Source: Brachionus manjavacas
Taxonomy: Eukaryota; Rotifera; Eurotatoria; Ploima; Brachionidae
Assembly: GCA_019054805.1 (NCBI GenBank)
Contig: JAHQIY010000003.1
Location: 8,680,001-8,744,000 of the forward strand
Direction: 5' to 3'
Length of the DNA stretch: 64,000 nt
The notes beneath the pieces are model-generated. The model saw only the letters and a list, made by a program, of their open reading frames with translations. It had not been told where the DNA came from and did no database searches. Both the position numbers and the translations under genes were made by a program. The first letter of the stretch is position 1. Each line of letters begins with the position of its first letter. Positions 3,001 to 44,275 of this stretch are shown piece by piece.

Positions 3001-3410
3001 ATGAAGCTTTTAATAAACTAAAATTACTAACAGTCTCGAATCGTCTTTTTGAGTTGAGCGAGAAATATGTTGGGACAGGACTGAGTCATTCTATTCCATT
3101 GGTTGAAAGACTGGTGAAAGAATACAAAGAAGGTTTCGAATCAAGATATATTGAATACCCAACTCCATTGTGTAATTGCTACCTTACTATTTCTTCTTTT
3201 TTAACAATCTTTTCCAATTTAAATCTTTTCAACTTTCATTTTTTTAGCTTATATACTCTATTTTGATTCTTTCTATTTTTTTTTTATCTAATTTTATTAA
3301 CTTTAATTTAATTTTAATTTTATTTTATTTTTTTATTTTTAACTTATTCTGAAGGAGCTCTAGCTCGGTACAGAAAACAAATAAACAAATAATAATAAAT
3401 TAATATTGAA
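1..3410 (+). mobile_element. Broken non-LTR retrotransposon (family A), 5' end outside window
   Basis: An open stretch at 3-350 may be the end of a first ORF. It is followed from about 480 by an endonuclease-like region (motifs GGGIAIL near 650 and GGDLNA near 865). A reverse transcriptase then runs from about 1800 to 2900, with RPISITSCLGKLLERI (about 2011-2060), EQSGFRKHRRTSDNL, GFPQGSVISPLLFSIYINDI and the catalytic FADD box (about 2490). In-frame stops and frameshifts break the reading frame at several places, so the copy is dead. The 3' tail carries the signature GAAGGAGCTCTAGCTCGGTA near 3351, followed by A/T-rich repeats. The motif set suggests a Jockey- or CR1-related clade, but the clade is not certain. 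Other partial copies occur near 45, 46-48 and 58 kb. Confidence 0.9.
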
Positions 3411-5300: not shown

Positions 5301-8300
5301 TCAGCATTCTTGATTGTAACTCAAAACTTTGTACTGTTTTAAATTCGGATTGCTTTTAAATGAAAAGCCAGGAGTAAGGTTGCATAAGCCACATATTGTT
5401 TTCTCACATGACTGAAATTTCAGCATTTGATCTCCATCAAAATAAATGGTAAACATATTAGTTTCCATAATTATATACACATCTGTTTTATTAATGCGCA
5501 CTGTCTCACTTAAATAAGGGATAGTCTCAACTACACCATTAACCTATTGATTTAAAATTTTACTTTAAATTCAAGAAAAAAGAAAAATTACCTTTAAATT
5601 TTTGGATATTTGGTAAATATTTTGGTTTAGCAAAACAGCAACAGTTTTCATAAAAACCGACTTATTGTTTTTATTTCTGTTTTCGTGGTTGATTAAAATC
5701 AAATAGCTTAAAATATCATTGTGACCACAAAAATCAGTTGCCAAAACATAAGGACATGAATTATCAATCATAAATTTGTAACCATTCTTTAAACAGTAAA
5801 TAAGTTATTGTTTCGAAAATAAATTTTTTTTACTAAATCCGTGTAATGAGGATCTCCAAAGCCATAACTTTTAATTAATTTGATGATGTTTTTTTTTAAT
5901 AACCGTGAATTAAAGTCTTACCAAAAATTTGTGCCTAAAAAATTAATTAGTTCTATATTCAATTAAATCAGTTAGAAGTTACTTTCACAAGGCTTCAAGT
6001 CTGAATCTGAATCATTTTTAAATAATATGCTCTTGTTATTTTTTATTTCAATTATTGATTCGTCTAAGCAATAAGTAGATGTTTTAAAAAATTAAAAATT
6101 AATTTTTTTTCCTTTAAATTAACCTTCTTCATAAAATACATCAAAATCAAATCGATCCAAAGTGGATAAATTTTCAGAATTGTTCACTCTGGTTGTTCTA
6201 CTAGTTGTCAGTACAGATCTTTCATGTGCTTGAATTTAAAATTTTTTTTAAATTTAATAAAATATTTTAAATGTAACGATACTTAAACCATCCTCTGTTT
6301 TATTGCTGCAGAAAAATCCATCTCCAGTGTAGCCATTTTTGCAAACACATTTAGGTTCGCCTTCAATTCCACTCATACATACTGCGAACATTGAGCATGG
6401 CTGAAGTATGTCAGTCAATGCTTCAAAACCATTTTGTTCGCAATAAAATTGTTCGTCACATTTATCTAATTTAGTCACTTCATTCACCTTTATAAATAAA
6501 TGTTTATATACCGAACCTTATTCTTAATAACTTTCTTCTCACAGATAAAAAGGAAGATCCATCAGGTAATATACAACCACATTTATCATAGGGAACACAT
6601 TGATCTTTTGAATCCAGGACAAAACCATCTTGACAAAAACATCCTTCAGTTAACTTTGTCACACCACAATCAATTTCACCAAGAGGATCTAGACATGTTT
6701 TTGGACATTCGTTTCGAACCCCATATATTTGATTTAATTCACAAGATTTTGCTTGAAAAAAAATTCAATAAATAAAAAAAATTTACTTGTTTTTCTGATT
6801 TAGTACTGCAATTGGTATGTAATCTCCACTGAATCGATGAGTCATAATCTAAGCAAATATCTGCCAGCTTTTCATATGCATCACATTTTAATTCCATTAG
6901 AAAATTAAATTCATCTCCATTGTTACACAAGTCAAAAACACATCCAGAATAGATTGAATCAACTAAAATTGGATCAAGTTTTTGAAGACATTTTGACCAT
7001 AACTCGGTTTTATTTTTTAATAAACCACACCACTTTTCACTTTTAAATGTTTCTTCGTTGATGCAGTTTGGTGAGCGAGGTTCTGGTCCAGGATCATTAT
7101 TTGGATTACATCTTTTAAAATTCAAAAAACAATTCAAATAAATTTTATAAAAATATTTACATTCTAAGATTTAATGGGTCATCTTTAGAATTGTCTAAAA
7201 CTCGCCAATTACTGCCCCAAACAAATAACGAATTGTTATAAAATTTACCATCTGAATTAACCAAACTATTGGTTTTATCCACAAAATCATTTGACACCAA
7301 GCCTAAAATTTTAGTAAAAAAAATTTTGAATTTTTCTGCAAATATCTTTTAATTTACCATCGCCATTTCCACAAAGACCACACACATGTTTAGCGTATGT
7401 ATCACATAAAATAACATCAACTTTGTGATTTCCGTTCCAAGTGACAGTCAAGCCGAATGTGGTGCTAAAGACAAGATTGGCACCTGACACATATATTCTC
7501 ACTCCATTGATATTGTCAACATAATTATTTGGTCTGATAATTCCATTTATGGTGTATTTGTGTCTGTTTCCACTTTTCTTCAACAGTCTGAATTGTTGAT
7601 TAAACACATTTATTTCAACATAAGCAACGTAAGCTACATTTTCTCTTCCATTTCTTGTTTCTTGTTTTTGGTGAATGCTGAATGGAATCATTCCTTCAGG
7701 CTAAAAAGAATTACATAAAAAATTCAAAAGGTTTTAAATTCAATAGGTTTGTCAGGAAAACAAATGAGAATATTTAAGACCATTTTAAAAAATCATAGTG
7801 TTAGGTTTGTAAAGGTAACATCCTTAGATAAAGAATGATATTAGAAAATATAATTTTATTGACTAATTTTTTTTCAGTCAGAACCTCGTTTCAGTTTTTT
7901 TGCTCATTTTAAAAATTTATTTTACAAAAAAGGCGCAGAAATCTCTTTTATTCTTTTCAATTGTCACGATAATATCATTTTTTATCTTTCTAAAATTTTT
8001 ATCCTTTATGTACCAAAAAATAATAGATACTCATTATAAAAATAATATTGAAAAAAACTCAATTTTAACTGCTTGAAAATTAATTAAGTCAAAAGCAAAA
8101 TCTTAATGTTTAAAAAGCTCTAAAAATTTAGCTTTTCAAAATTTGGTGAAAAAATTATATCATAATTTTGAAAATAATTTTGATGTCAAAAAAGATTTTT
8201 TATTTGAAAAGAATTTTTTTAATCGAAAAAGTTGCTTATTTAAAAAAGTTACTTTAATTGCATTGCATTTTTATAGAGTAAATTTATTTTAGTGATAAAA

Positions 8301-14928: not shown

Positions 14929-17900
14929 CTAAAATCCAATGCTACATCCTCGTTGTGAATTTTGGACCAAGAAAAAGTTTCTGTTGATGAAGTCGTCAAA
15001 TGGATTACCATTATTGTTACCACAAATACCACAGACAATATCGTTGCATTGATACAATTTCAACATTTGATCTCCATCAAAATATACTGTGAAAAAATTA
15101 GTTTGGAATACAATGTAATGATTTTCTCGTCTGACAAAAACATTCTCATTTTGCGACACGTATGGTAGCTCAACAGAAACTGTGTTTACCTTGATTAATT
15201 TTTGAAAAATTTAAGAAATTTTAAAGCTAAAAATTTGCCATTTATTTTTACTGTCAGTTCTTTTGTAATGGTGTAGAATTTTTTGTTGTAATAAATATTG
15301 ATCAACTTCAAGTAAGAGGCCTTATCGTTTGAATAACGATGTTCATGGTCGACATAAATAATGAATTTAAATTCGAAATTTCCTGGACAATAATCAGTTG
15401 CCAAAACATATGGACATGTCTTGTTTACCGAAAACTTGTCACCATCCTTAATGAAAATTTAGTTAAGGAAAACGTTTAAGGATTTTCCTGATTAGGCTTA
15501 CAAAAGTTCGATAATGTGGATCTCCAAATCCATAGCTAAATAACAGCAAATAATTTCAATTTTAAAAATAAAATTTTTCCTCTTACCAAACATTTTCAGC
15601 TAAAAAAAGAACAAATCAAATTAAAAAGATAAGTCAATTTAAGGAATCATATTTATTACCTTTGCATTCAGAAAATTCCAAATCCAAAAGATCCTCAAAA
15701 AAGAAAGGCTCATTAGAAAGACCACCTTTTGGTAAAAATTTTTAAAAATTAAAAACAAATTTTATCAATAATTACATCTTGAAGTTCCATTAACAAAGGT
15801 ATTTAAGAAATCATCGTTGTTAGGAGCACCTATATAAAGTTTAGAATTATATTTAAATAAATTAAAAATTAACCATTGATTATAAAATCTTCGAAACATT
15901 TTTTTTTATGGGTAACAAATTCATTATTCATTTCTGAAAAAATCAAAATTAATCAAATTATTATATTCATGTTAGTAAATATTAGACCTTCAATTTGTCT
16001 TTTGGTAGAACTAAAAGAAACTATTGTGGCTTCAGTAGTAGTTGTTGTTGTAGTTGGAGCTTCAGTGGTAGTTGTTGTTGTAGTTGGAGCTTCAGTGGTA
16101 GTTGTTGTTGTAGTTGGAGCTTCAGTGGTAGTTGTTGTTGTAGTTGGAGCTTCAGTGGTAGTTGTTGTTGTAGTTGGAGCTTCAGTGGTAGTTGTTGTTG
16201 TAGTTGGAGCTTCTGTGGTAGTTTTTGTCGTAGTTGGAGCTTCTGTGGTAGTTTTTGTCGTAGTTGGAGCTTCAGTGGTAGTTGTTGTTGTAGTTGGAGC
16301 TTCTGTGGTAGTTGTTGTTGTAGTTGGAGCTTCAGTGGTAGTTGTTGTTGTAGTTGGAGCTTCAGTGGTAGTTGTTGTTGTAGTTGGAGCTTCTGTGGTA
16401 GTTGTTGTTGTAGTTGGAGCTTCTGTGGTAGTTGTTGTTGTAGTTGGAGCTTCTGTGGTAGTTGTTGTTGTAGTTGGAGCTTCAGTGGTAGTTGTTGTTG
16501 TAGTTGGAGCTTCAGTGGTAGTTGTTGTTGTAGTTGGAGCTTCAGTGGTAGTTGTTGTTGTAGTTGGAGCTTCAGTGGTAGTTGTTGTTGTAGTTGGAGC
16601 TTCTGTGGTAGTTGAAGATGGAGCTTCAGTGGTAGTTGTTGTCGTAGTTGGAGCTTCTGTGGTAGTTGTTGTAGTAGTTGGAGCTTCTGTGGTAGTTTTT
16701 GTCGTAGTTGGAGCTTCAGTGGTAGTTGTTGTTGTAGTTGGAGCTTCAGTGGTAGTTGTTGTTGTAGTTGGAGCTTCTGTGGTAGTTGTTGTTGTAGTTG
16801 GAGCTTCAGTGGTAGTTGTTGTTGTAGTTGGAGCTTCAGTGGTAGTTGTTGTTGTAGTTGGAGCTTCAGTGGTAGTTGTTGTAGTAGTTGGAGCTTCTGT
16901 GGTAGTTGTTGTTGTAGTTGGAGCTTCAGTGGTAGTTGTTGTTGTAGTTAGAGCTTCATTGCAATTGTAACCATCTCCTTCAAAGCCAGAAATACATTTA
17001 CACTTTGGTAGATTATCTTCTCCTGCAATACATGCAGCAAATTCAGAACATTCTTTGAGGATCTCAATATTCAGCTGACCATTTAATCTGTCACATTCAA
17101 ATTTAACCGAGCAGTTTGTTTGAAGAGATTCGCCAAGCTTAGAAAAATGAGATTTTATGATATAATTTTTAATTAATTACTTAAATTTATTTGATTTTGA
17201 AAAAATGAATAATACATTTATTCACTTACAGGTAATATTCCAGATGCATCTGGTAGTGGACAACCACATTGATCAAGTGTGACACATACTCCATTTCCAT
17301 TCAATACGAATCCATCCTTACAAAAGCAACCTTCAACAGGCTTTATTTCACCGCAATCTGATGTACCAAGTGGATCGAGACATGTTCTAGGACAGCCTGT
17401 TCCGATTGTGTACATCTCGTTCATTTGACAAGTTAATGCTTTTAAAAGGAAATAATAGAAATTTTTGTTCAGCCTCAATTTAATTTAACAAGATTTGAAA
17501 CTTACGGCATCCTGTGGTGAATCTCCAATTAGATGCTTTATCAGAATTCAAAAGGCCATTGCAAATATCAGCCATTTCTTCGTAGGCCTTGCATTTGTAT
17601 TCTTGCTGTAAATCAGTATTTTGTTCAGTAGCACACATGTCAAATAAACATCCTTCATAAATACCGGCCAAAACATTTTGGTCTATTAATCTCAGGCATT
17701 CGGACCATGGTCCATTTCTTTCCTTAATAATGCCGCACCATTCATTATTCTTGTATATATTTTGATTTGAACATTTGACTGGATCTGGCTCAGGACCAGG
17801 ATTGTTGACCGGATCACATCTTAAAAATAAGTGTTCGTAATATTTTTTCTTTTTTAATTTGTCTTGAAAATCAATTTTACAAATTTCCATTTAGATTATC

Positions 17901-20900
17901 TTCTTCATCTGGAACTCTCCACAAACTTCCCCAATTGAATAATGTACTATTGTAATAAACATTATTGCTATCAATCAAACTATTATTCTTGTCAACAAAA
18001 TCATTGAATCTCGATCCTTTTAAAGTAGAAATTTTTGAATTCAACAATTTAAGCTAAATTTTAATCTCACCATCAGCATTTCCGCAAAGGCCACACACAT
18101 GGTTAGCATATGTGTCACATAAAATGACATCAGCTTTGTGATTTCCATTCCATAGTAGAGTCAAACCAAATGTTGTACTGAAAACAAGATTCGAACCCGA
18201 CACATATATTCTCACTCCATTCAAGTTGTCAACATAATTGTTTGAGCCAAGTATTCCATTGATGGTATATCTGTGTCTGTTTCCATTCTTTTTCAATAGT
18301 CTGAATTGTTGATTGAACACATTTATTTCCATATATGAAATGTAGGCTACTCTTTTATTTCCGTTTCTTTCTTCTTGCTTTTGAGTGATGCTAAATGGAA
18401 CCATTCCTTCAGGCTTAATTGATCCAAATTTTATTTAATGCTTTTAAAATTTTAATGCGAAATTTTTAATTGTTTTTCTTTTTTTTCTAATCTTTATTTA
18501 TTTATTTTTTTATTTATTTATTTAATTCAATTAACGCCAATTCTGGCGATGTAATAAAAAAGATTTAAAAAAAAACTTGAGTCAATCAGAATTTAGAAAT
18601 TTAGTCTTTCTTATAATAACTGTGTTTGTTAATTTAAATTTAAAAAAAAATAAATATAGAAAAATTCTATATTCAATGATAAAATTGTTTTTTTGCATAA
18701 TTTTTAGCATAAACATTTTGTCAATTAATTATTCATCCAAATTTTAGAAAAAGAGACTTAATAATGTTTTATTTTATATTGTTTTACTATTCTATTTAGA
18801 ATGCTTTTATTAGTAGGTTAAGAAGGGTTTTTCCATTTTGATCATTACTGTTTATCATTGGAAAATATGTTTTGATTGAGTCACTTATACCATTCTTTGC
18901 CATTATCTTTTTTTCTTCCTCTGTTTCCTTATCTTTATTATTCTTTTATTTTTTCCATTTTTAACTAGTCTTAATTTTTCATACTTATTAGTAATCATCA
19001 AATAAGAATTTGAATAAAATGTTACGTTTTTCATTCTTATTGTATGTAATTCCTTATTTCAATCTATATTTTTTATAATGTTTTTTATATTTTTTACAGT
19101 TCCGGAAATTAACTTATGACATCGTATCATCTAGTATTTTCTAATATCAAATAATATGAACTGATATCAAATGATTTTAGCAATCTGCTGATATTAGTAA
19201 AAAAAAAAAAAATTAAAGAAATTAATTTTAAATTATAAATTAAAAAACTTAGGATTTTATTTTAAATAAAAAATTTTTTTCACATATATATACATTAATG
19301 CATTTTAAATTAAATAATGCAAATTTTTACTTCTTTTTTAATTACTTCTTTGTTATACTTCTTTGTTATAATTTGTTTATTTCAAATACAGTGGATATTT
19401 AAAGAAAAAACACGATGTGGTATAGTGCTGATGTTGGTACAGATTTAATCGCGACAAAAAAGGCCTTCTGATCCGCTGCCGAAATAAAGAAAATTGCAAT
19501 TTTTTAATTATATTAAAAAATTCTAATTAAATATTGATATAAGAAAAATTCAAATTAAATGTCTACCATTTCTTGCCTAGAGATAATATAAACTATGCAT
19601 TGTGGATCACATCAGCAGCTAAAACAAATAGTCTTTTAATTAAAATTCTATTTAAGATAGATTTAAAATGCCAAATTTACCCGCATCTTAGCTTATTATT
19701 TTTATTATGATTTTTGTTTGATCTTACTTTATTAACTTTATTTTTTATTTTTTTTATAATTTATTCTAAAGGAGCTCTTGCTCGTTAAAAAAACAAATAA
19801 ATAAAAAAATTAAAAATAAAGTTAATAAAATAAGATCAAACAAAAATCAAATAAAGAAAATAATAATAATGTGCGGGTAAATTTGGCTTTTGTAAAAAAC
19901 GGATTAAGACAATTTTAGATGCACTATATTTAAATATTAAAGTTATTTATTGCATAGTGAGTATGAATGAAGATTTTACTTTTTTTCACACAATTGAATT
20001 TTAAATATTAAGATTACTTCACACAGTTAGCTATCATTTTAGCCTAATTATCATTAAATAATTAAATCGAACAAATTTTCTAAATAATATTTCGTAAAGT
20101 AATCATATATTATTCGGATTTTAAACAATTTTTAATAAATAACTCTGCTACAGACAAAAATTGATCCCAACTTCCCTCTTTATTTTGACATCTATTGTCA
20201 ACAAAAACTTTGAAAGAGGAAATAGTAGTTCAGACCCAAGCGTCCCTTCAATGAAAATCATTTATGTTAGTCAAGCTTTTAATTCTAGTTTTTAAATTGT
20301 TTACATTTTCTTTAAATTTAAAATAAGTTATTTTTTAAACTGGAAAATTAGCTTGAGAAATCATGGTTTTCATCATTATTATCTTAATAATCGAAAATTC
20401 CTTTTTTTTGAGGCACTTAACCATTTTCATGGGCATTAAGTGCGGCGTAAATTTTTTATTAGATTATAGATTAATTTATAGATTAAATTTTGAACAAATC
20501 TTTCTAAAATATTTGAAAAATACTTCGAAAATTTCTTACTTTTTTTTGCATTATTTCAGCTATAGGTTTAAATTAAAGGTTTTCAATGTTGTATTTTAAA
20601 AAAGATATGCTTTTGGATCTTAAGTTGAAGTATTAATCACCAATTTTTTATAACAACTGAAAAAATTTTAATTATCTTGGTATTATTTAAAAAAAAAAGG
20701 AATAAATTGGATTTGAATTTAAATTTAGCCAAAATTTTAATTTAACTATTTTAGATTTGTAAAGAAACGTTAGGATTTAAATTATAATAAAAATTTAAAA
20801 AGTTTACCTATCTAAAATACAAAACAAAATTATAATGCATTTTTATCTGATATAAAATCAAATGAAAATCTAAAAAGAAATAGAATAGTTTCTAAAATGC

Positions 20901-23900
20901 AAAACTAATATATATTTAAGCCTTGTGATAAAGAGATTAGGAAAAAATTAAATATCGAAAGGTAAAATGTCGAAATGTGTTATTTTCAAAAATTTTTGAG
21001 GCGGTCTGATTTGAGACGCACAAAAAATATTGTTGGAACTTGCAAAAAAATTGCAGAAAATTAAAAACTCTTGTTAAATGAAAGAGAAATTTTTTTTGAA
21101 ACCTTTTGGCCTTTAAAAAAAAAATTAAAAATAGATAAACTTATTTTTTTAAATTAGAAAAATAAAAGAGTGTAAATCAGAATTGTTCAAGAGAAAAACT
21201 TTATCAATGAGAGAAAAAAGGTAAATTAAACTTACCAGAGATTGATTGTAGCAATCGGTTGATACCAAATCGTATTTGCATTTTCCCATGAAATCAAACT
21301 TGGCCTTATCAAAAGTTGTGCAATGTGGATCACCCCAGCAGCTATAACAAATAGTTTTTTAATTGAAATTTTATTTAAGTAGAATTAAACAAGCCAAATT
21401 TACCCGCATCTAAGACTCTTACAACATCTTACGTTTGGATCCCCTACTGATCTAGATGGACATGAACATACTGGAGACCTATTGACATTTCTGCAAATGG
21501 CACCAAAACCACATGGATTTTCGGAACATGGATTGTTTGATTTTGGCCTTGGTTGACATCTGTATCTCACTGCTAAATACTTTTGCACATCTGGACAAAT
21601 TAAACCTAAAAATCTCACTGAAGCATCTACTCTGCATCTTCTCTTGTTATTACACTGCTTTCTCACCAGGTTGACTACATTCAATCCACGACAAAGCACA
21701 TTAGTGACCAAGCCGATGATCGATTTCGGTTTTGAAGCACACACTGAAAATTGACTTCTTTCAAATCTGGCTCTTCTAATTTTAATTATTTGGTCAGCTG
21801 GACACTCAATATTCAAAAACTCATTTTCACATGCATCTATTTGAAGGAAGAAATTTAAATTTTATTTTCGTAATTGAAAAGAAATTTACATTTTTCAACA
21901 TCTTTATTATTGGGTTTGTTTTCTTCTTCTGATGATTCTTCTTTGGAAGATTTTTCCTTCGAGGATTTTTCCTCAGATGATTTATCTTCACGAGACTTAT
22001 CTTCATTACTGTTCAAATTTTGACCATAAGGCATTATTAAGTTGTTTTTAGGACCAATTCGAAATTTACTGCAAACAAAGGTAAGTGTAACATGTCTCTT
22101 GTCACCATCGCATTCATCTCCAAATAAATCGTTATTTATGGTAAAGTTACAACTTGTTTCATTCCGGCATAATTCGGAAATTTTTCTTGATTTCAATGAG
22201 TATAAACTTTGGGCGCATTTCAGAGGACCAGTTTGTCTTTCGCATCTTGGATCATTGAGACGCAATTGTACAGATCGAACAAAAATAAATCTATCTTTAT
22301 CACATTCAAGTTTTACATTTTCACCTTCACATTTGGATACTGTTTCGGCTATAAATAAAGAAAATATTTTTAATATTTAGGAAGTTTGTAAAATATCAAA
22401 ACTCACGAGAAGTAAAAATATCTGTTAATTTGTCAAGAACATTATTCGTATTATTAAACAAATTTGGTAGTTTTTGTCCATTTCCCAAGAGATTCTGCAA
22501 CAAATTTGGTCTCGAGGCTTCTGTTTCATTTTCTAATTTGTCTTTATTTTTATTCAACAAGTCTTTTATATTTTGTACTCTGTCAAGCAAATTCTGGACT
22601 GGCTTATTTTCTTTACTTTCATTTTCGTTACTTTCTTTTTTTTCTTTGCTCTTATTTTCGTCACTTTCTTTTTTTTCTTTGCTCTTATTTTCGTCACTTT
22701 CTTTCTTTTCTTTATTTTTATTCAATAAGTCTTTTATATTTTGTACTCTGTCAAGCAAATTCTGGACTGGCTTATTTTCTTTACTTTCATTTTCATCACT
22801 TTCTTTCTTTTCCTTGCTCTTATTTTCATCACTTTCTTTCTTTTCTTTGCTCTTATTTTCGTCACTTTCTTTCTTTTCCTTGCTCTTATTTTCATCACTT
22901 TCTTTCTTTTCTTTGCTCTTATTTTCGTCACTTTTATTCTTTTCTCTGCTCTTATTTTCGTCACTTTCTTTCTTTTCTTTGCTCTTATTTTCGTCACTTT
23001 CTTTCTTTTCTTTGCTCTTATTTTCGTCACTTTCTTTCTTTTCTTTATTTTTATTCAACAAGTCTTTTATATTTTGTACTCTGTCAAGCAAATTCTGGAC
23101 TGGCTTATTTTCTTTACTTTCATTTTCATCACCTTCTTTGTTATTAAAAAAATTATTTTCGAAAGATTTCTTCTCAGATAATTTATCTTAATTACTTGTT
23201 GCTGTAGTAATCTCCTCAATGCAATTGTAACCATCTCCTTCAAAGCCAGAAATACATTTACACTTTGGTAGATTATCTTCTCCTGCAATACATGCAGCAA
23301 ATTCAGAACATTCTTTGAGGATCTCAATATTCAGCTGACCATTTAATCTGTCACATTCAAATTTAACCGAGCAGTTTGTTTGAAGAGATTCGCCAAGCTT
23401 AGAAAAATGAGATTTTATGATATAATTTTTAATTAATTACTTAAATTTATTTGATTTTGAAAAAATGAATAATACATTTATTCACTTACAGGTAATATTC
23501 CAGATGCATCTGGTAGTGGACAACCACATTGATCAAGTGTGACACATACTCCATTTCCATTCAATACGAATCCATCCTTACAAAAGCAACCTTCAACAGG
23601 CTTTATTTCACCGCAATCTGATGTACCAAGTGGATCGAGACATGTTCTAGGACAGCCTGTTCCGATTGTGTACATCTCGTTCATTTGACAAGTTAATGCT
23701 TTTAAAAGGAAATAATAGATATTTTTGTTCAGCCTCAATTTAATTTAACAAGATTTGAAACTTACGGCATCCTGTGGTGAATCTCCAATTAGATGCTTTA
23801 TCAGAATTCAAAAGGCCATTGCAAATATCAGCCATTTCTTCGTAGGCCTTGCATTTGTATTCTTGCTGTAAATCAGTATTTTGTTCAGTAGCACACATGT

Positions 23901-26900
23901 CAAATAAACATCCTTCATAAATACCGGCCAAAACGTTTTGGTCTATTAATCTCAGGCATTCGGACCATGGTCCATTTCTTTCCTTAATAATGCCGCACCA
24001 TTCATTATTCTTGTATATATTTTGATTTGAACATTTGACTGGATCTGGCTCAGGACCAGGATTGTTAACCGGATCACATCTTAAAAATAAGTGTTCGAAA
24101 TATTTTTTCTTTTTTAATTTGTCTTGAAAATCAATTTTACAAATTTCCATTTAGATTATCTTCTTCATCTGGAACTCTCCACAAACTTCCCCAATTGAAT
24201 AATGTACTATTGTAATAAACATTATTGCTATCAATCAAACTATTATTCTTGTCAACAAAATCATTGAATCTCGATCCTTTTAAAGTAGAAATTTTTGAAT
24301 TCAACAATTTAAGCTAAATTTTAATCTCACCATCAGCATTTCCGCAAAGGCCACACACATGGTTAGCATATGTGTCACATAAAATGACATCAGCTTTGTG
24401 ATTTCCATTCCATAGTAGAGTCAAACCAAATGTTGTACTGAAAACAAGATTCGAACCCGACACATATATTCTCACTCCATTCAAGTTGTCAACATAATTG
24501 TTTGAGCCAAGTATTCCATTGATGGTATATCTGTGTCTGTTTCCATTCTTTTTCAATAGTCTGAATTGTTGATTGAACACATTTATTTCCATATATGAAA
24601 TGTAGGCTACTCTTTTATTTCCGTTTCTTTCTTCTTGCTTTTGAGTGATGCTAAATGGAACCATTCCTTCAGGCTTAATTGATCCAAATTTTATTTGATG
24701 CATTTAAAATTTTAATGCGAAATTTTTAATTGTTTTATTTTTTTTCTAATCCTTATTATTCTTTTATTATTTAATAATAATCACCAAAATTTGTTAATAT
24801 TTTAAATGGATTTCTTTGTTTTATATTTTTATAATTTTGATATTGATCCTAATAATTGATTTTATTAAATCAATATAAAAATATTCTTTAAACTATTAAC
24901 AATCTATAATTTTCAATTAAAATTAAATGAGTTTATTTAATTTTTTTTTTTTTTTCATTTTTAATCATGTACAAGGTTTTACCTTCTGATCAGCTGTCGA
25001 AATAATGAAAATTAATTATTGATATAAGAAAAATTCAAATTAAATGTCTACAAATTAAATTTCTTGTAAGAAAAACTTGAATGATTGAACTTCGATTTTT
25101 TTATATCCTTTTTATGATGATTATTAAATCAATTTTAATTTTTGGTTGTTAAAAAATTTATATCTATTTAACTGAATATAATTATTGTTGTTAAAATTTA
25201 ATTTTTTTTAAAAGAAAAAAAATAAAATAAAGAGTTTGAAAAAAATGAGTCGGTCATTCCTTATTTCAATCTCTATTTTTTATATTTTTTACAGTTCCGG
25301 AAATTAACCTATGACATCGTTTCATCTAGTATTTAATAAAATCAAAGAATATGATCTGATATCAAATGACTTTAGCTACAGCTGATATTAGTTAAAAAAA
25401 TTTGTAGTTTTTTAAACAAATTGGACTTCTTTTATAATCAAATTTTAATTTACTAATGCCTTTCCATGAAATTCACATGAAATTGAATTTAAAATTTGCC
25501 ATGCGATCATTTTCGAGGCCACATAAGTTTTCTTGAGACAACTTACTAAAATTCAGTATTTTTTTAAATCTAGTCTCACTTACTTGACGTCTTATTTTAA
25601 ATTTAGCTCTTATTTTAACAAATTAAAACAACCTCCTTATAGGAGAAGTAAATTTAAAAGGTATTTAAAAAAAAAAGTTAGTTTAAAAAAATCTAGAAAA
25701 TTAAAAAATTTAAATTTTCACTAATAAAAAAAAATTAATAAAGAAAATAAATAAAGACATAAAATGGAGCTTCGTTTATTGAGTCATTTATTCAGTGAAT
25801 GAAACGTTATTTTAAAATAGCTGAAAGTTTAGCTCAATTAATTTTTTAGATTGCTCACGAGAACTGGTCAAATACTATGCAATTAATCTTAACAAATTAA
25901 TTTGTGTTCCAACTGAAGCAAAAGCTATTTCAAAACTGGATAAAAATATCTTTTTTAAAATTAATGAATTTATTTTAAAGTTATTATGGCAAATATTTGG
26001 TAAGCATTAATAACCAATCTTGTTCTTGTACAAATTATTTAAAATGAAAGATTTTTCACATATTTGGCATTATAAAAGATGAGTTTTTTAAAAGCTAAAA
26101 AGGGACGTATCCTACATGCGAGAAAAAACTTACACTTTTCTAATATTTCTAGAAATTTTTAATAAAAATAGTCGTGCACAATTTATTGTGTGATGTTCAA
26201 GCTATAAAATTTGAAACATTCTTTTTTATAACTTAACTACACACTTAAGGTGCGTGATTTGATTAGGTTTTGTGCTCATCAGAAATTCAATATGTGTTAA
26301 TCATATGCAAAAAATACTTTATTTTTTTAATTATATACTTGAAATAATTTTATCTTCCCATATTAACAAATTTCGATTTTTTTCTTACAATAAACATTTT
26401 GATATAGAGAAAAACATTTAATTACAATTCATGAACTTATAGAAACGAAAAAATGTGTTATTTTTCAATATAACAAGAAATAATAATCAAAAAATATCAA
26501 AAAAACTTTCTGTCTTTAAGAACAAGAACTAGTGTGTAGATCTAAAAGAGATCCAAAGATTTGTGATTAATTTAGGAATTAGAAAAGAGTTCGTAAAAAT
26601 TATTTCATCATTAAAACCTTTAGTAAAAATCGCACCATAAACTCTTACTAAAAATGAAATAATTTTCAAAATGTCAGAATTCAATTCCTAAATTCTTATT
26701 GTTTTGAAATTTAAAAAAAAAAAATTAAAAATAGATAAACTTATTTTTTTAAATTAGAAAAATAAAAGAGTGTAAATCAGAATTGTTCAAGAGAAAAACT
26801 TTATCAATGAGAGAAAAAAGGTAAATTAAACTTACCAGAGATTGATTGTAGCAATCGGTTGATACCAAATCGTATTTGCATTTTCCCATGAAATCAAACT

Positions 26901-28876
26901 TGGCCTTATCAAAAGTTGTGCAATGTGGATCACCCCAGCAGCTATAACAAATAGTTTTTTAATTGAAATTTTATTTAAGTAGAATTAAACAAGCCAAATT
27001 TACCCGCATCTAAGACTCTTACAACATCTTACGTTTGGATCCCCTACTGATCTAGATGGACATGAACATACTTGAGACCTATTGACATTTCTGCAAATGG
27101 CACCAAAACCACATGGATTTTCGGAACATGGATTGTTTGATTTTGGCCTTGGTTGACATCTGTATCTCACTGCTAAATACTTTTGCACATCTGGACAAAT
27201 TAAACCTAAAAATCTCACTGAAGCATCTACTCTGCATCTTCTCTTGTTATTACACTGCTTTCTCACCAGGTTGACTACATTCAATCCACGACAAAGCACA
27301 TTAGTGACCAAGCCGATGATCGATTTCGGTTTTGAAGCACACACTGAAAATTGACTTCTTTCAAATCTGGCTCTTCTAATTTTAATTATTTGGTCAGCTG
27401 GACACTCAATATTCAAAAACTCATTTTCACATGCATCTATTTGAAGGAAGAAATTTAAATTTTATTTTCGTTATTTAAAAGAAATTTAAATTTTATTTTC
27501 GTAATTGAAAAGAAATTTAAATTTTATTTTCGTAATTGAAAAGAAATTTAAATTTTATTTTCGTAATTGAAAAGAAATTTAAATTTTATTTTCGTAATTG
27601 AAAAGAAATTTACATTTTTCAACATCTTTATTATTGGGTTTGTTTTCTTCTTCTGATGATTCTTCTTTGGAAGATTTTTCCTTCGAGGATTTTTCCTCAG
27701 ATGATTTATCTTCACGAGACTTATCTTCATTACTGTTCAAATTTTGACCATAAGGCATTATTAAGTTGTTTTTAGGACCAATTCGAAATTTACTGCAAAC
27801 AAAGGTAAGTGTAACATGTCTCTTGTCACCATCGCATTCATCTCCAAATAAATCGTTATTTATGGTAAAGTTACAACTTGTTTCATTCCGGCATAATTCG
27901 GAAATTTTTCTTGATTTCAATGAGTATAAACTTTGGGCGCATTTCAGAGGACCAGTTTGTCTTTCGCATCTTGGATCATTGAGACGCAATTGTACAGATC
28001 GAACAAAAATAAATCTATCTTTATCACATTCAAGTTTTACATTTTCACCTTCACATTTGGATACTGTTTCGGCTATAAATAAAGAAAATATTTTTAATAT
28101 TTAGGAAGTTTGTAAAATATCAAAACTCACGAGAAGTAAAAATATCTGTTAATTTGTCAAGAACATTATTCGTATTATTAAACAAATTTGGTAGTTTTTG
28201 TCCATTTCCCAAGAGATTCTGCAACAAATTTGGTCTCGAGGCTTCTGTTTCATTTTCTAATTTGTCTTTATTTTTATTCAACAAGTCTTTTATATTTTGT
28301 ACTCTGTCAAGCAAATTCTGGACTGGCTTATTTTCTTTACTTTCATTTTCGTTACTTTCTTTTTTTTCTTTGCTCTTATTTTCGTCACTTTCTTTTTTTT
28401 CTTTGCTCTTATTTTCGTCACTTTCTTTCTTTTCTTTATTTTTATTCAATAAGTCTTTTATATTTTGTACTCTGTCAAGCAAATTCTGGACTGGCTTATT
28501 TTCTTTACTTTCATTTTCATCACTTTCTTTCTTTTCTTTACTTTCATTTTCACTACTTTTTTTGTCATCATTACTCTTGAATAAGTTTTCCAATATTCCT
28601 CCATTGTTCAATATGTTTGGTAATATTCTATTATTATCAACTCGATTATTTGATTGTCTAAGCAATCCTGTTATCAAACCTTTATTTTTAATTTTTAATT
28701 CTCCTTGTTAATTAGTTTCACTTAAAAGCCTTATCAACAATTTTTAAAGACTTTTAAATTAGAGAAAAATTACTGTTTTTTTCATCCGAATCTTTCCTTA
28801 AAAATATAGTTCCTATCGTGGCTATGTGAAAAACTAACCAAACTAACAAGATGCTATTTAATTTAAAATTTTTCAT
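14929..28876 (-). CDS. Secreted SUEL-lectin/VWD mucin-like mosaic protein with internal duplication (gene B)
   Basis: Paralogue of gene A. Model of 26 exons: 28876-28774, 28703-28131, 28072-27614, 27436-27004, 26941-26836, 24673-24331, 24276-24141, 24079-23766, 23698-23490, 23397-23196, 23135-22407, 22348-21890, 21836-21404, 21341-21236, 18413-18071, 18016-17881, 17819-17506, 17438-17230, 17137-15988, 15933-15874, 15829-15776, 15725-15660, 15599-15587, 15535-15502, 15446-15252, 15189-14929. All phases agree and give 2479 residues. Order: signal peptide (MKNFKLNSILLVWLVFHIA), KESDENKSKE-type repeats, SUEL, acidic serine linker, SUEL plus EGF-like, VWD, C8, TIL, EGF; the same set again from residue about 960; then a T7-EAP mucin-like repeat and a terminal VWD (CGICGNNNG). 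An in-frame TAA at 23188-23190 lies inside the proposed 60-base intron 23136-23195. If that intron is not used, the gene splits in two: an upstream gene lacking the last VWD and a downstream copy lacking a signal peptide. Confidence 0.78.
15990..16965 (-). repeat. Threonine-rich mucin-like tandem repeat (30-base unit, about 31 copies)
   Basis: Read on the minus strand, the repeat encodes the ten-residue unit TTTTTTTEAP about 31 times inside exon 19 of gene B, between an EGF domain and the terminal VWD. Units differ at only a few positions; one unit near 16610 is shortened. Threonine/proline repeats of this kind are typical sites of dense O-glycosylation in mucins. The plus strand is also open here but encodes only valine/glycine or cysteine/serine repeats and is a shadow. 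Confidence 0.92.
19594..19690 (-). pseudogene. Relic of a lectin/VWD exon junction within intron 14 of gene B
   Basis: On the minus strand this stretch repeats, with decay, the end of exon 13 (TGCGGGTAAATTTGG), its intron and the start of exon 14 (compare 21325-21415). The VWD start now reads CTGCTGATGTGATCCAC, with a TGA in place of TGG. It shows that an additional copy of this exon pair once existed here. Confidence 0.75.
19669..19889. repeat. Inverted repeat flanking a retrotransposon 3' tail
   Basis: Arms of about 82 bases (19669-19751 and 19808-19889) are reverse complements with few mismatches. The outer ends are the gene B exon/intron boundary CCAAATTTACCCGCA. The spacer is the family A retrotransposon tail (TATTCTAAAGGAGCTCTTGC near 19762). 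It may be a foldback copy made during insertion. Confidence 0.75.
21112..21235 (-). repeat. Intron start shared by both gene B copies
   Basis: The first roughly 120 bases of intron 14 are identical to the first bases of intron 5 (26712-26835). Beyond that point the two introns diverge. It marks one edge of the homogenised block. Confidence 0.7.
22600..23130 (-). repeat. KESDENKSKE coding repeat of gene B (downstream copy)
   Basis: Within exon 11, a 30-base unit encoding KESDENKSKE or a close variant is repeated about nine to ten times, interrupted by a longer unit containing NKPVQNLLDRVQNIKDLLNK. The upstream copy in exon 2 (about 28320-28550) has fewer units. The segment is highly charged and probably disordered or coiled-coil-like. 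Confidence 0.85.
27445..27612 (-). repeat. 31-base tandem repeat in intron 3 of gene B
   Basis: A 31-base unit containing TTATTTTCGTAATTGAAAAG is repeated five times between exons 3 and 4. The homologous intron in the downstream copy (21837-21889) has one unit. The length difference of 124 bases is exactly four units, so the array grew or shrank after duplication. Confidence 0.9.
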
Positions 28877-29409
28877 CTTTGGCAATTTAAATTTAATTTT
28901 AAAATTACTTTGCCTTTTATATTAAATTTTTAGTGGCTTCAGATTTGATTTTTTGATTTTCGTAGGTTTATTTGGCAACATTTTGTCATTTGTAATTCTA
29001 AAAATGTGTTTCTTTGAGGATTAATTTATTTTACTTTAACTAAATTTAAATTATCTTTTCTTTTTTCTAAATTTGAATAACATTTTAAATTTATCTTTTC
29101 ATATGGTAATTCAATTGTTCAGAAATTGAAATCACACAAACATTTTTCCAATTTTTTAAAATATTCATCATAACTATTTAACAAAAAATTAATTTGGAAA
29201 AAAAATCAAAAAATAAAATTTATTTAAAAGTAAAAATTTTTTGAAATCAATAAATTTCTAGCAGTTTTTTTCAAAGGTTTCGAATTGTACAAACCCTAAT
29301 ATTCTTAACAAAAATTGAGCAATAAGACTCAAAATTTTGGAAATATAAGATAATACTAATTTTTGTATCAGTAAAAGAAGTTATCAAAAAACAAATCAAC
29401 AATTTAATT

Positions 29410-32400
29410 TCAATCGGCTATTTTCGTGTTATCTTGAATCCATTTGTGATAAAATGATACATTTGTATATATGCCTCTACCTGTACACATTGAATCTCCA
29501 TTTGATACGACGCCAACAAGTTGCCATCGCTTTGATCTGTCCTGCTGCATCACCGGGCCGCCAGAATCTCCCTTAAACAAGAAAGTTAGAATTCTCTTTG
29601 CCATTTAATTTCAAGTTTTCGAACATTGCATGTATCTTTTCCAAGATTTTGATTTCCAGCACAAAACTGCAACACTGGCAAATATGACAAACCACATGTG
29701 TTCGCTGACTGAACTTGAATTTTAACTTGATTCAAAGTGTCAGACGCTTAATTATTAAATTTAAATTTTTTTTTCAAAATTATGCTTTTTACCTCGATAG
29801 AAATTATCTTCAGTAAATCCCCATCCAACCGCGTACAAATCGGTGCCGGGATTTGTGTTGGTTTCAGATGGTACGCAAATGTAATTCAAGTTTTCTGAAT
29901 CAATTACGTCGCGGTCTAATTTGATTATTGATATGTCATTTTTAAAAGTATTTTGGTCAAAATTCGGATACTAAAATGTTTTTAATAAAATATCTTTACT
30001 TTTAATTTTTTTTGGTTAAATTTACTTCAATTATAGATTCAACGCGGTAGGTATTTTCAGCAGTTATGTCAGTTGAACGAGTGTTCACGCTAACATAAAC
30101 TCGCATCATTTTTTCCAAACTACCAAATAGGTCGTGTGAATTAACAGGATTTCCGACAAGATTAAATATTGAGCGACTTAAAAATAAATTTTTTTGAATT
30201 TTAAAATTCCTGAATGCCATCGAAAATTAATGAATAAAAAATTGGCACCTTTCGACACAATGTGTAGCTGTAACAACAAAGCGTTTGTTGACCAACGCAC
30301 CACCACACGCATGAGGAAGAGAAGTTCTGGGACCAAAATATCCGATTGAAACAGTCCATGGCCACGAATCTCTAACAACAGGATGGCCACGCATTATTCT
30401 TGTCAGTTGCAGATTGGGATCAATCAGCGGCACTCCGCATTCTTTTGACAAAAATTCAAAAATGCGATCTTAAATTTAAGTTTTTTGCTATGCATTAAAG
30501 TTTGTGTTGTCGATGGTACTAATAATTTTTTAAATTTTGATAATAAACTTATGAACACATTCTATTTCCTTTTCAAGAAATTATTTGTTTTATTTGTTTT
30601 TAAAATTCAGTATTGTTGTTTTAAAAATATATTTATGCAAATTGATTCTTTGGAAGGCGGACAAAATATAGAAAGACAGATTATAGACACGTTTGAGAAT
30701 TTTACGATTAGTGACAAATTTTAAAAGTGAGAATATTGAAGCATTTTTAGAAGGTTTAGGTAATAATTTACTAATTGATGAAGAAAAAAATTGAAAAAAA
30801 ACTAATTAGACTATTTATTTCATTTGTATAATTTTGAATTCGATATTTTTTCGTACAATATTTTTTTTTCTACATTATTTTTTCAGGTAAATTCTATTTT
30901 ATTCAATAAATTTTTTTTTCTATACTTTGTTTATCTAAATTATGTCACACTGGCGATTCTTTTCTTAAGATTTTCAATTATTCATACTAAAATAAAATTT
31001 ACAAAAAATAAGGTTCTTAAAACAGTTTTAGCAATCTCTGTCTCTCATTAGTTAAAATTTAAATCATCAATTTAAAAAGTTTAATTAATAAATTACTTCC
31101 TTTAAATGATTAACGATGAATGCAGTTAACTGGAACAGTAAATTTTTGAATTATAAAATTTTTCTTATAAAGATCAGTTATCTAAATGATATGACACAAT
31201 ATGAAAAAAAATCAAAATATTTACCATCTTTTGACAATTTCTTAGAGTATACTTTTTTTATTATGTGTAAAAATGATTAATTCACATCGAACATGTGTCA
31301 CTCAAAATTTAATTTTAATCTTTACACTATTTTTTATTTTATTCTATACTAACCAAAATAATCAAAGCTTTTAAGTTTTAAGAAACCCTTTTTTAACTTT
31401 AAATAAAAATATCTTAAGAAATCAAATTAAGAGGCATTTAAATTTTTAATATATTATACATATAAATGGTTAAAAAAGGTTCAGAAATTATTTTTCTAGT
31501 CGAGGTTCCAATGGCATGAGGTTCTCAAACAGGAGCAACCCCTCAAATTTTATTTTTAGAGCTATAAAATTAATTTCATAATTCAATGATCAAACATTTT
31601 TTTTACATAATAAAAATCTTAAAAATTAACCAAGAAATGGCCATTTTAACTATTACATTGATTATAACTTTGAGCTTATATATTTCACAGCCCAAATGTT
31701 AAATTTGTCTTTATGTAAAATAAAAAAGAGCTCTATAGGTAAAATTAGTTATTTTTAAAGTGCACAAGACAATTGCTAGATTTAAATTGTTTAAAAAAAT
31801 GCGCTTTTCAGCATTTAAATATTTTCATAAAAACGAGCATTTTTTTTCATACCTATAAGGTAAAATTTTTTCTTATAATAACATTGTTAAAAAAAGAATG
31901 AAAAAATTAAATAATTCATCATTTTTGTTTTTTTATTTTAGTTTTAATCATTAACTGGAAAAACCAAATTTACAAAAAAAGCTAAAATTTTTTTCTATCA
32001 GAATCTGATTTAGGAAAGGTTAGTAAGTTAAAAAAGTAATGATCGCAAAAATATTAATTTTAAAAACTATACGTGAGATTTATGTGATTTTAAAATAAAT
32101 TGTCAGCTTGAATAGTAGCAGACGATTTTTAAGCTTTATGGACACAAATTGAAAGTCTGAAATTTTGGCAAATTGAAATTTATGATAAAATTTAAATGAT
32201 CACGATTTTAATTTTATTGCATAAGAATTTTTTCTGAACTGAATTTTTTACATCTGCATATCTCCACAAAAATTATATTCATGCACAATACTTAATGGTT
32301 TAACATAATTTTTTTTTAATTAAATTTTAATTTTAAAATGATTAAAAATCTTTTTTAAGATAATTTTTGACAATGCGTTTAAAAATTCGATCAAAAACTT

Positions 32401-33318
32401 TCATTAATGCAAGTTTTTCATCTAATGAACAAAAAAATAAAAAAAATCCTATAGTTAATAAAAAACAACTTTCAAACAAATATTGAAGAAATTTTTTTCT
32501 CTCCAATTATTGATGTCTTTTCTGTTTTTACCGCAACAATTTTCTTTTACCTTTGTTTTATATTGTGGTTTTCATTTTCAAAAATTTTATAAAATTAAAT
32601 TTCAAAAATCATATTTTAACAAAATACAAGCGTAAAATTTTACTGAAAATGACCAAATGATCTTAGACCATTGATCATGGCTTTTAGAAATATTTCTTGG
32701 TTTCTGAACTTAATCACTCAAACGGTACTCAAATTTAAGTTATTTTATGTCAATTGAGAGATTTAAATTTAAGATACATTTTTTTAGGTTAAGCTTCTTA
32801 CCCGTGGGCTTTCTCGCAGGAGGCAATTTTTGAACATTAGTTGATGACAAAGTCGTGCTAACTAAACTGATGGATGTTTTAGTTTGAGTTGATATTGTGA
32901 TGATAGTCTGATTATCGCTAAGTTTATTGTTAGTATTTCTTGGCTTGGCAGAAACAATCGCATAAACAATTCCGGATATTACCGCAACTGAAAAAATAAT
33001 ACCCATGATTACTAATGGAATTATAAGTTTTGGTCTATTGATCAATTTTTTATTGCTGTCTGCGATTTTAGAGGTTAATTTGGGATTTTTGGAGTCTATA
33101 AAAGCGGTATTTGGCAAATTGACATTGACAGATGGCTGGGAATTGAGAAGATTTTTAGATGAATCAACTCCATTAGCATCGGGCGTATCGGATAATTGCC
33201 GGGAAATTGAATAAATATTCTGATCACTTAATCGGTATGCTTTATTTACATGTCCAGAATTTGTTTTGATGGCCTGGTTGCCTTTAACATTTCCATTTCT
33301 TGATTTGTTGTCAACCAT
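29410..33318 (-). CDS. Type II transmembrane trypsin-like serine protease
   Basis: Predicted cell-surface serine endopeptidase of the chymotrypsin (S1) family. Exons 33318-32802, 30441-30249, 30176-30026, 29970-29793, 29746-29625 and 29571-29410 join in consistent phase to give 440 residues. The first exon has a polar cytosolic N terminus, one membrane segment (LIIPLVIMGIIFSVAVISGI, about residues 98-123) and a Ser/Thr-rich stem ending at a strong donor (GGTAAGAAG). The protease domain has ECGVPLIDP before the activation site, RIMRG in place of the usual RIVGG, His in VVTATHC, Asp in NDISIIKL and Ser in GDSGGP. The intron between exons 1 and 2 is 2.36 kb, so the link rests on phase and on sense of architecture. 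The exon 5 donor (AATGTTCG) is weak but gives the family motif DTCNGDSGGP. Shares orientation with genes A and B. Confidence 0.8.
30442..32801 (-). other. Long first intron of the serine protease gene
   Basis: AT-rich sequence without a supportable gene or recognisable mobile element. Confidence 0.5.
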
Positions 33319-40760: not shown

Positions 40761-43700
40761 TATGTCAGGCTGGGTAGATGTAACAAGCCTGACATACAGT
40801 TGCCAATCACCTGTAGTTCCATGTAACAAGTGGTGTTCCACAGGATAATGTTCTCTAATCGATTTTGTTTATAAAGCATATAAGCGATTGCACTTAATCA
40901 AAAGAAAAAAAATGTGATCATTTATGGTGTGCAAGAATCAAAGAAAGAGATTTTAACAGACAGGAGGGCAGAAGATGAAGAAAAATTCAAACAATTTCTG
41001 ACCACTATTGGAAAAGGTGATGTCAAGCCAGTGTATTCGAGACGCTTGAGATCTAAAGACCAAAGTAAACCAGGCCCAATTCTAGTAGAACTCAAAGAAG
41101 AAGCAAACAGAAATCCACTACTCCTAGCAGCCAAAAAGTTGCGAGATTCAAATAATTTCAAATCTATTTATCTTAGTCCAGATTTGACTGAAACCGAAAA
41201 AGCTTTAGACTATGAATTGAGGAAACAAAGAAACGAAGCAAATAATGGTCTTTCACAAGACTCGCCCTTTCGATATGGCATCCGTGGAAATCAGATCGTC
41301 AAATTCAAGAACCAATAATCGTTCATCAAAAGCGTCATCACGTGTGGATAATCTCGAATCTTTAAAATGTATGTATTTAAATGCTACTTCCTTGGACAAT
41401 AAACTTGATGAATTCAGTGTTGTTATTGAAACATATGGCCCACAAATTGTGGCAGTTAGTGAGACTTGGTTTAAGAGTATCTCAAATGCAAACATTAAAG
41501 GATACAATTTGTATAGAAAGGACAGAAGTGATGGACGCAGAGGCGGGGTGTATGTCTCTACATTGATGAAAATATCGATTCATTTGAATTAAATGATGCA
41601 GGTTTTAATTTAAGTAAAATAGAAAAAATTTCGGTAGTTGTTAACTTTAACTGTGAAAAGTATTTAGTTGGCTGTCTTTATAGGCCAAACGATTTTGTTG
41701 ATATGAACGATTTTGATTTAGTCTTCAAACAAGCTAAAGACTTTGTGGATGAAAGAGGTCTTAAGGATATTCTAATAATGGGTGACTTTAACTTTCCATC
41801 AATCATCTGGTCAAATGGCTGTGTTTCAGAAATCTTAAACGAAAATGGCATCGAACATAAATTAAGCGAGACGCTAAGCGACACTTTTCTATATCAGCAA
41901 ATAATTGTTCCAACATTTTAAATGTCAAACGAAAAAGCTGTCAACATTTTGGATTTTATTTTCACGACTCAGTCTGGCAGTGTGTATGCAATCGATACAA
42001 AATTTGTGCCTGGTAACATTAATTAAGGACATCTGGTTATCTTTTTCAATTTTGTACTCAAAAACAAGGTTAGTTAGCAATCATATATTATTGAAAAATT
42101 TATTTATAGTAAAGCTGACTTTGAAAATTTCTAATTTTCTAATAAATATTGATTGGGTGCACTTATTTGAGAATTTAAATATTCAGGAAATGTACAATGA
42201 GTTTATTTTCTATGTCAGCGAAGCTAGTAATCAATTCATTTCAGTGACGGATGGCTCTAAAAAGAAAAGTATCTCAAAACCTTGGATAAAAGATGATCTC
42301 AAGATCTTAATTAGGAATAAAAAAAATCTTAGATACAGGAACTGTCCATGTAAGGAAATTAATCTTTATAATGATTACAAAAGTATCTGTAAATTAGTTT
42401 CTTCGGAAAAAAAAAGAGCCAGACTAACTTATGAACAAAATTAAGTGGATAAAGCTAAGAAGAATCCAAAATAATTATTCAAATATCTAAATGATCAACA
42501 AGTAAACAGAGAACCAATCAAAGCATTAAAGAAGTCAAACAATGAATTAACACAAGAACCGAAAGAGATGACAAATCTACTAAATAAATGTTTTCATGAT
42601 GTTTTTGTTATTGAACAAGATGGGGAGCTTCCACCTTTTGTAGCTGAACTTAATGAAAACTGTTCAGAATATATTGACATTAAACCAAATGATATTAGTT
42701 ATGAAGTGGTTTATAAAAAATTACAAGACCTTAATCAAAATAAATCATGTGGTGTAGACAAGCTTCATCCGCTATTGTTAAAAAACTGTGCAGACGCCTT
42801 TACTGTTCCTTTAACTATAATTTTCAGAAATTCTTTATCTAATAGTCAGCTTCAAATACAATTCAGATCAGCAAATATTACTCCATTGTTTAAAAAAGGT
42901 GATAAATCAACGGCCAGCAATTTTCGTCCCGTGTCTTTAACTTCAATTCCGTGCAAAATTATCGAAAGCATAATAAGAACCAAAATGGAAGACTATCTTT
43001 ATAAGAAAAATATTATATCTAAAGAACAGCATGGATTTGTCATGCAAAAGTCATGTACATCTAATTATATGGAAACTCTAGATTTCATCTAGACAAAAGT
43101 ATTCTTGTTGATGTAATTCTGCTGGATTTTGCGTAGGCATTTTATACTATCCGTACAGACGACTAATAGCTAAATTGAAAGCTTATGGCTTTGATGGTCT
43201 GACACTAAAATGGATTGAAGCTTTCTTGAAAAATAGAACACAACGAGTTGTTCAAGGTAAAATTTTGTCGGATTGGGTTGAGATTTTTAGCGATGTACCA
43301 CAAGGATCAGTGATTGGTCCACTTTTGTTCGTTTTGTATATCAATGATCTACCAAAAGGAATAGAGAATATTGTCAAAATGTATGCAGATTATACAAAAA
43401 TATTCTCGCAAACGGTATCAGAAATAAGCGCAGTGAAACTTCAATCAGATTTAGATATAATTTTCAAGTAGACTCAAGATTGGCTTCTTCTCTTCATCAC
43501 ATCAAAATGTCTGGTTATGCATTATGGTCATAAAAACAAAGAATTCACTTATTTTATTAATGTTAAACAGTTTTAAACGTCTGAAACCGAAAGAGATCTT
43601 GGAGTTATCTTTAATACAAATCTCAAATGGAAAAATCAAGTGATAGAGGCTACAAACAAAGCAAATCAAATGTTGGGTCGCATCAGGAAATTATTCGCTC

Positions 43701-44275
43701 GTTTTGATTGCAAGTTATTCAGATCATTGTATTTAACTTTTGTTCGTCCTCTTTTGGAATTTGCTGTGCCTGTTTTGTCTCCATTTCTTAAGTCGGATTG
43801 TGAGAATCTTGAGAGGATTCAACGCAGAGCTACCAAATTTGTTTCTTCAATTAGAAACAAACCGCATGAAAGCAGATTGAAGGCTTTGAACATTCCAAAT
43901 CTTGTGGAAAGAAGAAAAAGAGTTGATATAATTCAATTATACAAGTTCATGCATGGAATAGAAATGTTTGAATAAAGCAACAATTTTAATGTCACCAAAA
44001 TCCAAGGAATAGGTCACTGCTTCAAATATCACAAAGAAATTTCGAGGCTCCAACATAGAGATAACTTTTTTTTCAACAGAACCGCTAACAAATGGAACTC
44101 ACTGCCAAATCAATTAGTTGAAGCCCCTAATGTTAACAGCTTTAAAGCAGGCATTGATTGCTGGATGAGCAGCAATCAATCACATCAGCTGTCATAGTGT
44201 GCCTTATCAGCCCACTCGCTGGCTAGCCAGCAACAGTCAAAACTACTACTACTACTACTACTATTTTGAAAATTT
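40761..44275 (+). mobile_element. Near full-length but broken CR1-like non-LTR retrotransposon
   Basis: The 5' region has an inverted repeat TATGTCAGGCT/AGCCTGACATA (40761-40797). An open stretch at 40914-41318 resembles the N-terminal domain seen in CR1-like first ORFs (VIYGVQESK, then YLSPDLTETEK). Endonuclease motifs follow: LKCMYLNATSLDNKLDEF, SETWFKS and MGDFNFPSIIW (to about 41920). The reverse transcriptase has NFRPVSLTSIPCKIIE (about 42920), EQHGF and DVPQGSVIGPLLFVLYINDL (about 43300). Its catalytic box reads YADY where YADD is expected. The C terminus is at 43640-43975, and the tail ends in ACT repeats (44250-44270). Frame breaks separate these parts, so it is inactive. Its tail resembles that of the fragment at 8668-9300. 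Confidence 0.9.

Follow-up and report, generated by a model that had tools for sequence, protein, structure and literature searches.

Gene B agrees with itself almost completely in the exons and short introns of its two halves, while the long introns within these halves are largely unalignable. Which sequence of events could leave such uneven divergence inside a single gene is the question addressed here. The window, the whole stretch of 64,000 nucleotides of DNA that was analysed, corresponds to C3:8680001-8744000 (C3 being contig JAHQIY010000003.1) in a 114-Mb assembly of 61 contigs, and all data come from this one assembly. The window is AT-rich, with a GC-content of 21–38% in 2-kb windows.

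Structure of gene B and its gene cluster

Gene B lies on the minus strand and consists of two halves, A (28536-23220) and B (22812-16960). The domain order of each unit is SUEL lectin, SUEL lectin, EGF-like, VWD, C8, TIL and EGF. In half A, Pfam placed VWD, C8, TIL and EGF_3 above cut-off. The second SUEL_Lectin was found with an E-value of 1.1e-14, and the first (4.6e-6) was under its curated cut-off, as was the EGF_3 match after the second lectin, here called the EGF-like stretch. The domains of half B were assigned through its near-identity with half A, and both units have the composition of a SUEL-lectin/VWD/C8/TIL/EGF extracellular protein.

The splice model contains nine shared exons per half. 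The first-pass annotation had counted ten. A putative signal-peptide exon, recognised by eye and starting from 28876, is located ahead of half A only. The model is open through both halves, its single stop among 2,220 codons being the terminal one, and a 60 bp-long junction intron with GT...AG borders (23136..23195, minus strand) connects the two halves in frame. Half B terminates in a 30 bp Thr-rich repeat of 31 copies followed by a C-terminal partial VWD region. A 33 bp coding minisatellite (Lys/Glu/Ser-rich) is found at the 5′ edge of both halves (22607-23046 and 28331-28563), with 13 copies in half B and 3.5 plus 2 in half A; it is a possible seed of the unit duplication.

A genome-wide search with the exon 6 protein gave six matches, all on the same strand and within C3:8672.4-8704.7 kb, i.e., in one cluster. 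The six units are distributed pairwise among three genes: A and B in gene B, D and C in the middle gene (window ~14.2-5.3 kb) and H and G in the third gene (loci L065-L066), which is situated just left of the window.

Near-identical blocks in the two halves

Outside the long intron, halves A and B differ by 5 substitutions per ~3,180 aligned bases (~0.16%), one of them in the 5′ block and four in the 3′ block. The 5′ block of half A (26836..28536, minus strand; alignment and Pfam) extends from a part of exon 2 to exon 5, comprising both SUEL lectins, the EGF-like stretch and the start of VWD, and runs on for ~125 bp inside intron 5, reaching 26710. Its counterpart in half B (21112..22812, minus strand), delimited by the alignment, includes the first ~125 bp of intron 14. 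Over A 28536-26710 and B 22812-21112 there is one substitution (27073/21473), accompanied by a 124-bp indel in the intron 3 minisatellite, whose tandem unit is 31 bp, and a 2-bp change in a T run. The 3′ block (A 23220..24696, by alignment and Pfam; B 16960..18436, by alignment; both minus strand) covers exons 6-10 with VWD, C8, TIL and EGF, and A 24696-23220 differs from B 18436-16960 by 4 substitutions (24098, 24067, 23935 and 23720) per 1,477 bp. The intron 3 minisatellite of half A (27448-27618) has 5.5 copies, is 124 bp longer than that of half B and may serve as a copy-number marker.

Two of the five substitutions (24098 and 23720) are in short introns, which total 447 bp in half B. The translations of the homogenised blocks differ in one residue only (Q/P, from 27073), so the other two exonic changes are silent. 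The near-identity at silent sites and within short introns described in the first-pass annotation was thereby borne out, and protein selection therefore does not explain the identity of A and B. Conversion through a reverse-transcribed (cDNA) intermediate was ruled out as well, the short introns being included in the identity.

The longest identical run was 1,339 ungapped columns in the 5′ block and 598 in the 3′ block, with maxima of 331 and 198, respectively, in 2,000 column permutations. The inner edges of the blocks lie in diverged intron, and the outer limits coincide with the ends of the units (28536 within the minisatellite, 23220 close to where the EGF exon ends), so diverged flanks are present on one side of each block. 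Outer limits of this kind would also be left by a fresh duplication, and the substitution rates of the two blocks (1/1,704 and 4/1,477) do not differ significantly (p 0.19), which would allow one event. If a whole unit had been duplicated recently and one of the copies had later received its long intron from an older copy or from a diverged allele, A and B by themselves would look nearly as they do. We nevertheless consider this scenario unlikely. Searches for a donor with exon 4 and with exons 6-10 revealed no third near-identical copy in the genome (all candidates scored), and the genome-wide search with the exon 6 protein likewise found no third near-identical copy.

A value of 0.16% matches the size of the hsp82 heterozygosity given for Brachionus isolates in PMC3495898 (0.0016), if the genome is of that kind. 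The two halves could then be two divergent haplotypes of a single-unit gene that came to lie in tandem, whether through a true unequal crossover between alleles or through misassembly. This is very improbable in our estimation: the A-to-B junction is in frame and formed by a GT...AG intron, and when the genome was searched with the flanking sequence upstream (window 28600-32600; 40 of 132 candidates scored), no further full copy turned up, the matches being pieces of ≤389 bp. An assembly or polishing error may still have played a part, although the search revealed no second flank, the junction is in frame and real differences persist inside the homogenised blocks.

Divergence of the long introns

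Long intron 5 of half A (24674..26835) and long intron 14 of half B (18414..21235), both on the minus strand, have GT...AG ends, in agreement with the first-pass coordinates. The stretches 26709-24697 and 21108-18437, respectively, are not homogenised. The common start of the two introns, announced as a match of about 120 bases, was found to span ~125 bp and breaks off sharply within a run of T. The end before exon 6, for which a match of 60–80 bases had been noted, is indeed homologous, but only the final ~22 bp are identical; the last 77-78 bp contain 4 substitutions. A longer alignment of this end gave 105/113 identical positions, and overall identity is 93-95%. The substitution rate here (4 in 77 bp) is higher than in the blocks (5 per ~3,180 bp; Fisher p 3e-5).

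A middle intron block at 19081..19206 (minus strand) is homologous to A 25400-25276, with 90.5% identity, or 223/269 in a longer alignment. Identity between A and B ranges from 83 to 90% by alignment, and the block is related to dispersed copies at 73-79%, which makes homology between A and B less secure here than for the intron end or for the exon relic described below. Another short block, located at A 25051-25010 and B 19566-19525, has 98% identity; it is out of order and part of a dispersed repeat. The remainder of introns 5 and 14 is mostly unalignable and repeat-laden, consistent with the scattered diverged blocks reported earlier. Among the matches listed in a search for hidden homology between the unrelated-looking stretches, many were weak and AT-rich, and only the relic, the intron end and two short blocks were conspicuous. 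When the printed sequences were compared by eye, the edges of intron 5 in units C and G did not clearly resemble those of A and B.

The aligned pieces of the long introns thus differ by 5-17%, versus ~0.16% in the blocks. Equal divergence of exons and introns after correct alignment, the outcome that would have spoken against an unusual history, was not seen, and this unevenness rules out a simple recent tandem duplication. It also makes replacement of the intron after duplication, the second explanation offered in the first-pass annotation, less likely: since the aligning pieces are 5-17% diverged, a swapped-in intron would itself need an old copy or allele as its source.

The repeats in the two long introns are mostly of different kinds. 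Intron 5 contains dispersed-repeat pieces at ~26170-25777 and 25248-25011. In genome-wide searches with the long-intron DNA (40 of 209 and 40 of 1,544 candidates scored), the matches beyond the locus itself were dispersed repeats.

An exon relic and repeats within intron 14

Intron 14 contains a decayed relic of the end of exon 4, intron 4 and the start of exon 5 (19596..19698, minus strand), identical to A 27021-26919 at 89/102 positions. Its 13 differences in 102 bp were compared with the 5 per ~3,180 bp of the blocks (Fisher p 9e-17). The position of the relic implies that intron 14 retains pieces of an older copy. Identity to the other units is only 72% (unit G) and 67% (unit C); the relic therefore derives from a unit of the A/B kind and predates the near-identity that the halves now show. 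The first-pass annotation mentions neither this relic nor the two patches elsewhere in the cluster that are described below. If one copy's intron had been swapped after a recent duplication, an old homologous intron donor, exon 4/5 relic included, would still be needed.

A palindromic (fold-back) repeat (19662..19896, minus strand), 81% identical to its own opposite strand and 77% over 284 columns, abuts and partly overlaps the relic. By eye, it extends in inverted orientation into the relic, over ~16-18 bases at the border of exon 4 and intron 4.

Of the two long introns, only intron 14 carries a dispersed repeat that terminates in (TAAA)n and resembles a LINE in appearance (18494..18979, minus strand). 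The nearest among 17 aligned copies is 4.7% different, and the repeat has 18 private changes per 380 columns where at least three near copies agree. In a separate search with this repeat (40 of 175 candidates scored), no match longer than 75 bp was above 94%; short 3′-end pieces matched it closely, three of 62-64 bp at 98% and one of 72 bp at 97%. These values favour an insertion that predates the 0.16% homogenisation, and this dating is supporting evidence only, because the short 3′-end pieces reach 97-98%.

The presence of dispersed repeats in both introns, mostly of different kinds, could suggest that transposon insertion and deletion alone altered the introns after a recent duplication. 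This is the least probable of the explanations considered. Indels neither raise the aligned intron pieces to 5-17% divergence nor create a relic, and transposon insertion alone was rejected on the age of the surviving homologous intron pieces.

Exchange patches elsewhere in the cluster

Patches were compared on one strand over C3:8650001-8680000 together with the initial 30 kb of the window. The C-terminal partial VWD region of gene B (14996..15793, minus strand) is shared with the third gene (C3:8669764-8670561) over 798 columns with zero differences, and the two genes are 25 kb apart. Outside the run, identity falls to 81.5% over 313 columns of a gap-rich alignment. The maximum run in 2,000 permutations was 206, and a genome search with the patch found one other near-identical copy, that of the third gene, and none further. 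This B–G patch is, as read from the sequence, a very recent exchange.

A second patch comprises exon 6, intron 6 and a part of exon 7 of unit C (7239..7701, minus strand), near-identical to unit G at C3:8672291-8672752. Its 463 bp contain one substitution and one 1-bp indel, and the units are 15 kb apart. The longest C–G run of 318 compares with a permutation maximum of 139 (2,000 permutations). The left edge of the patch (7701) is the splice acceptor of exon 6, and the adjacent intron 5 is ~3,060 bp long in unit C and ~630 bp long in unit G. The exon 4/5 piece of C and G is only 69/87 (79%) identical.

Diverged homologous flanks, as expected around a converted tract, were found on both sides of the B–G and C–G patches, the left flank of C–G being an intron of doubtful homology. 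Homogenisation includes intronic and silent positions, i.e., the short introns in A–B, intron 6 in C–G and the B–G stretch without any difference. All four runs (1,339, 598, 798 and 318) are longer than expected by chance.

Whole-unit duplication would not explain these patches. They are conversion-like without duplication of a unit, which argues further against a duplication of A and B with a subsequent intron swap. Stacked haplotypes of one gene also leave patches between units 15 and 25 kb apart unexplained and were rejected on this ground, on the missing second flank and on the in-frame junction.

Probable recurrent ectopic gene conversion

The reading we prefer, with a probability of roughly 80%, is recurrent ectopic gene conversion between old tandem copies, halting at the heterologous long intron. 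As a part of this reading, gene B would be one gene built of two old tandem units. Patchy conversion between older copies had been the other proposal of the first-pass annotation, and it fits best the two levels of divergence, the joint homogenisation of exons and short introns, the old intron pieces and the recurring sharp-edged patches.

The tandem units would first have diverged by ~5-17% at neutral sites, their fifth-intron copies gathering different repeats. Recently, ectopic recombination at the DNA level, namely gene conversion, possibly with unequal exchange, would have copied the blocks flanking the long intron from one unit to the other. The exchange probably died out where the fifth intron no longer aligns, and the intron would therefore keep the older history. 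On the 5′ side, a new block may have been set ahead of the remains of the old unit via unequal exchange or insertion, since the relic and the non-homologous edge at 26710/21112 misfit plain in-place conversion. The location of the relic in the intron of half B suggests that half B was the recipient on this side. The 3′ block grades into a diverged but homologous intron end and would resemble ordinary conversion. There may have been two tracts, or one with an unconverted heterologous loop; a single event is possible for both blocks because their substitution counts do not differ significantly. Such conversion would not be confined to A and B, as the B–G and C–G patches connect all three genes of the cluster.

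In two separate patches, A–B (at or just after 24696) and C–G (at 7701), the 5′ edge coincides with the intron 5/exon 6 border. A tentative extension, which we hold to be doubtful, is that the repeat-filled fifth intron acts as a natural firewall: coding modules would flow among units and genes, and the intron would repeatedly halt the exchange. If so, intron content, more than selection on exons, would decide which surface-protein modules stay identical.

Comparison with known systems

In the human fetal and alpha globin gene pairs, which are classic examples of tandem genes, conversion patches stop within an intron or at a heterology. In the passages on the GOT1Sd and GOT1Sr paralogs of Tigriopus californicus (PMC3728101), conversion between paralogs is described as largely restricted to exons, with one large, size-variable and mostly unalignable intron, and the author suggests that intron divergence ended the conversion. 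Gene B is similar in having conversion in exons beside a large unalignable intron. In the copepod, according to the same passages, the paralogs were traced across populations with GENECONV, whereas the copies in gene B are halves of one gene. An exon relic within the intron is present in gene B and does not appear in those passages, and the gene B cluster also shares patches among genes.

For the MaSp silk gene cluster of Argiope spiders, the relevant part of PMC9779670 describes intergenic conversion that homogenises genes while the flanks keep an older history. The gene B cluster shares both traits, namely intergenic conversion within a cluster and older history in flanks; in MaSp, as described there, introns are homogenised within the gene, whereas in gene B it is the long intron that escapes homogenisation. 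A section of PMC3495898 describes internal repeats evolving in concert in the mmr-b genes, which act in mate recognition in the Brachionus plicatilis complex, and a passage of an opinion article (PMC9220161) proposes that introns may limit recombination between duplicates. A literature search found no paper joining at least three of the terms rotifer, SUEL, von Willebrand and gene conversion. Gene B is a new, clear example of a known process, exon conversion beside an unalignable large intron.

The locus offers an unusually legible record of patchwise concerted evolution, in which two freshly homogenised blocks of one gene enclose an intron core that is old and unconverted. Its cluster of three genes, where at least two more patches connect other partners, could be used to measure how intron heterology limits ectopic conversion. 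It is also a warning that whole-unit similarity may misdate tandem duplications.

Other features of the window

An inverted repeat of ~327 bp with 99% identity (53909-54235 and 54832-55156) perhaps represents a mobile element pair. Reading frames resembling LINE-type reverse transcriptases, named by eye, are located at 1389-3266, 41221-43975 and 57935-58593.
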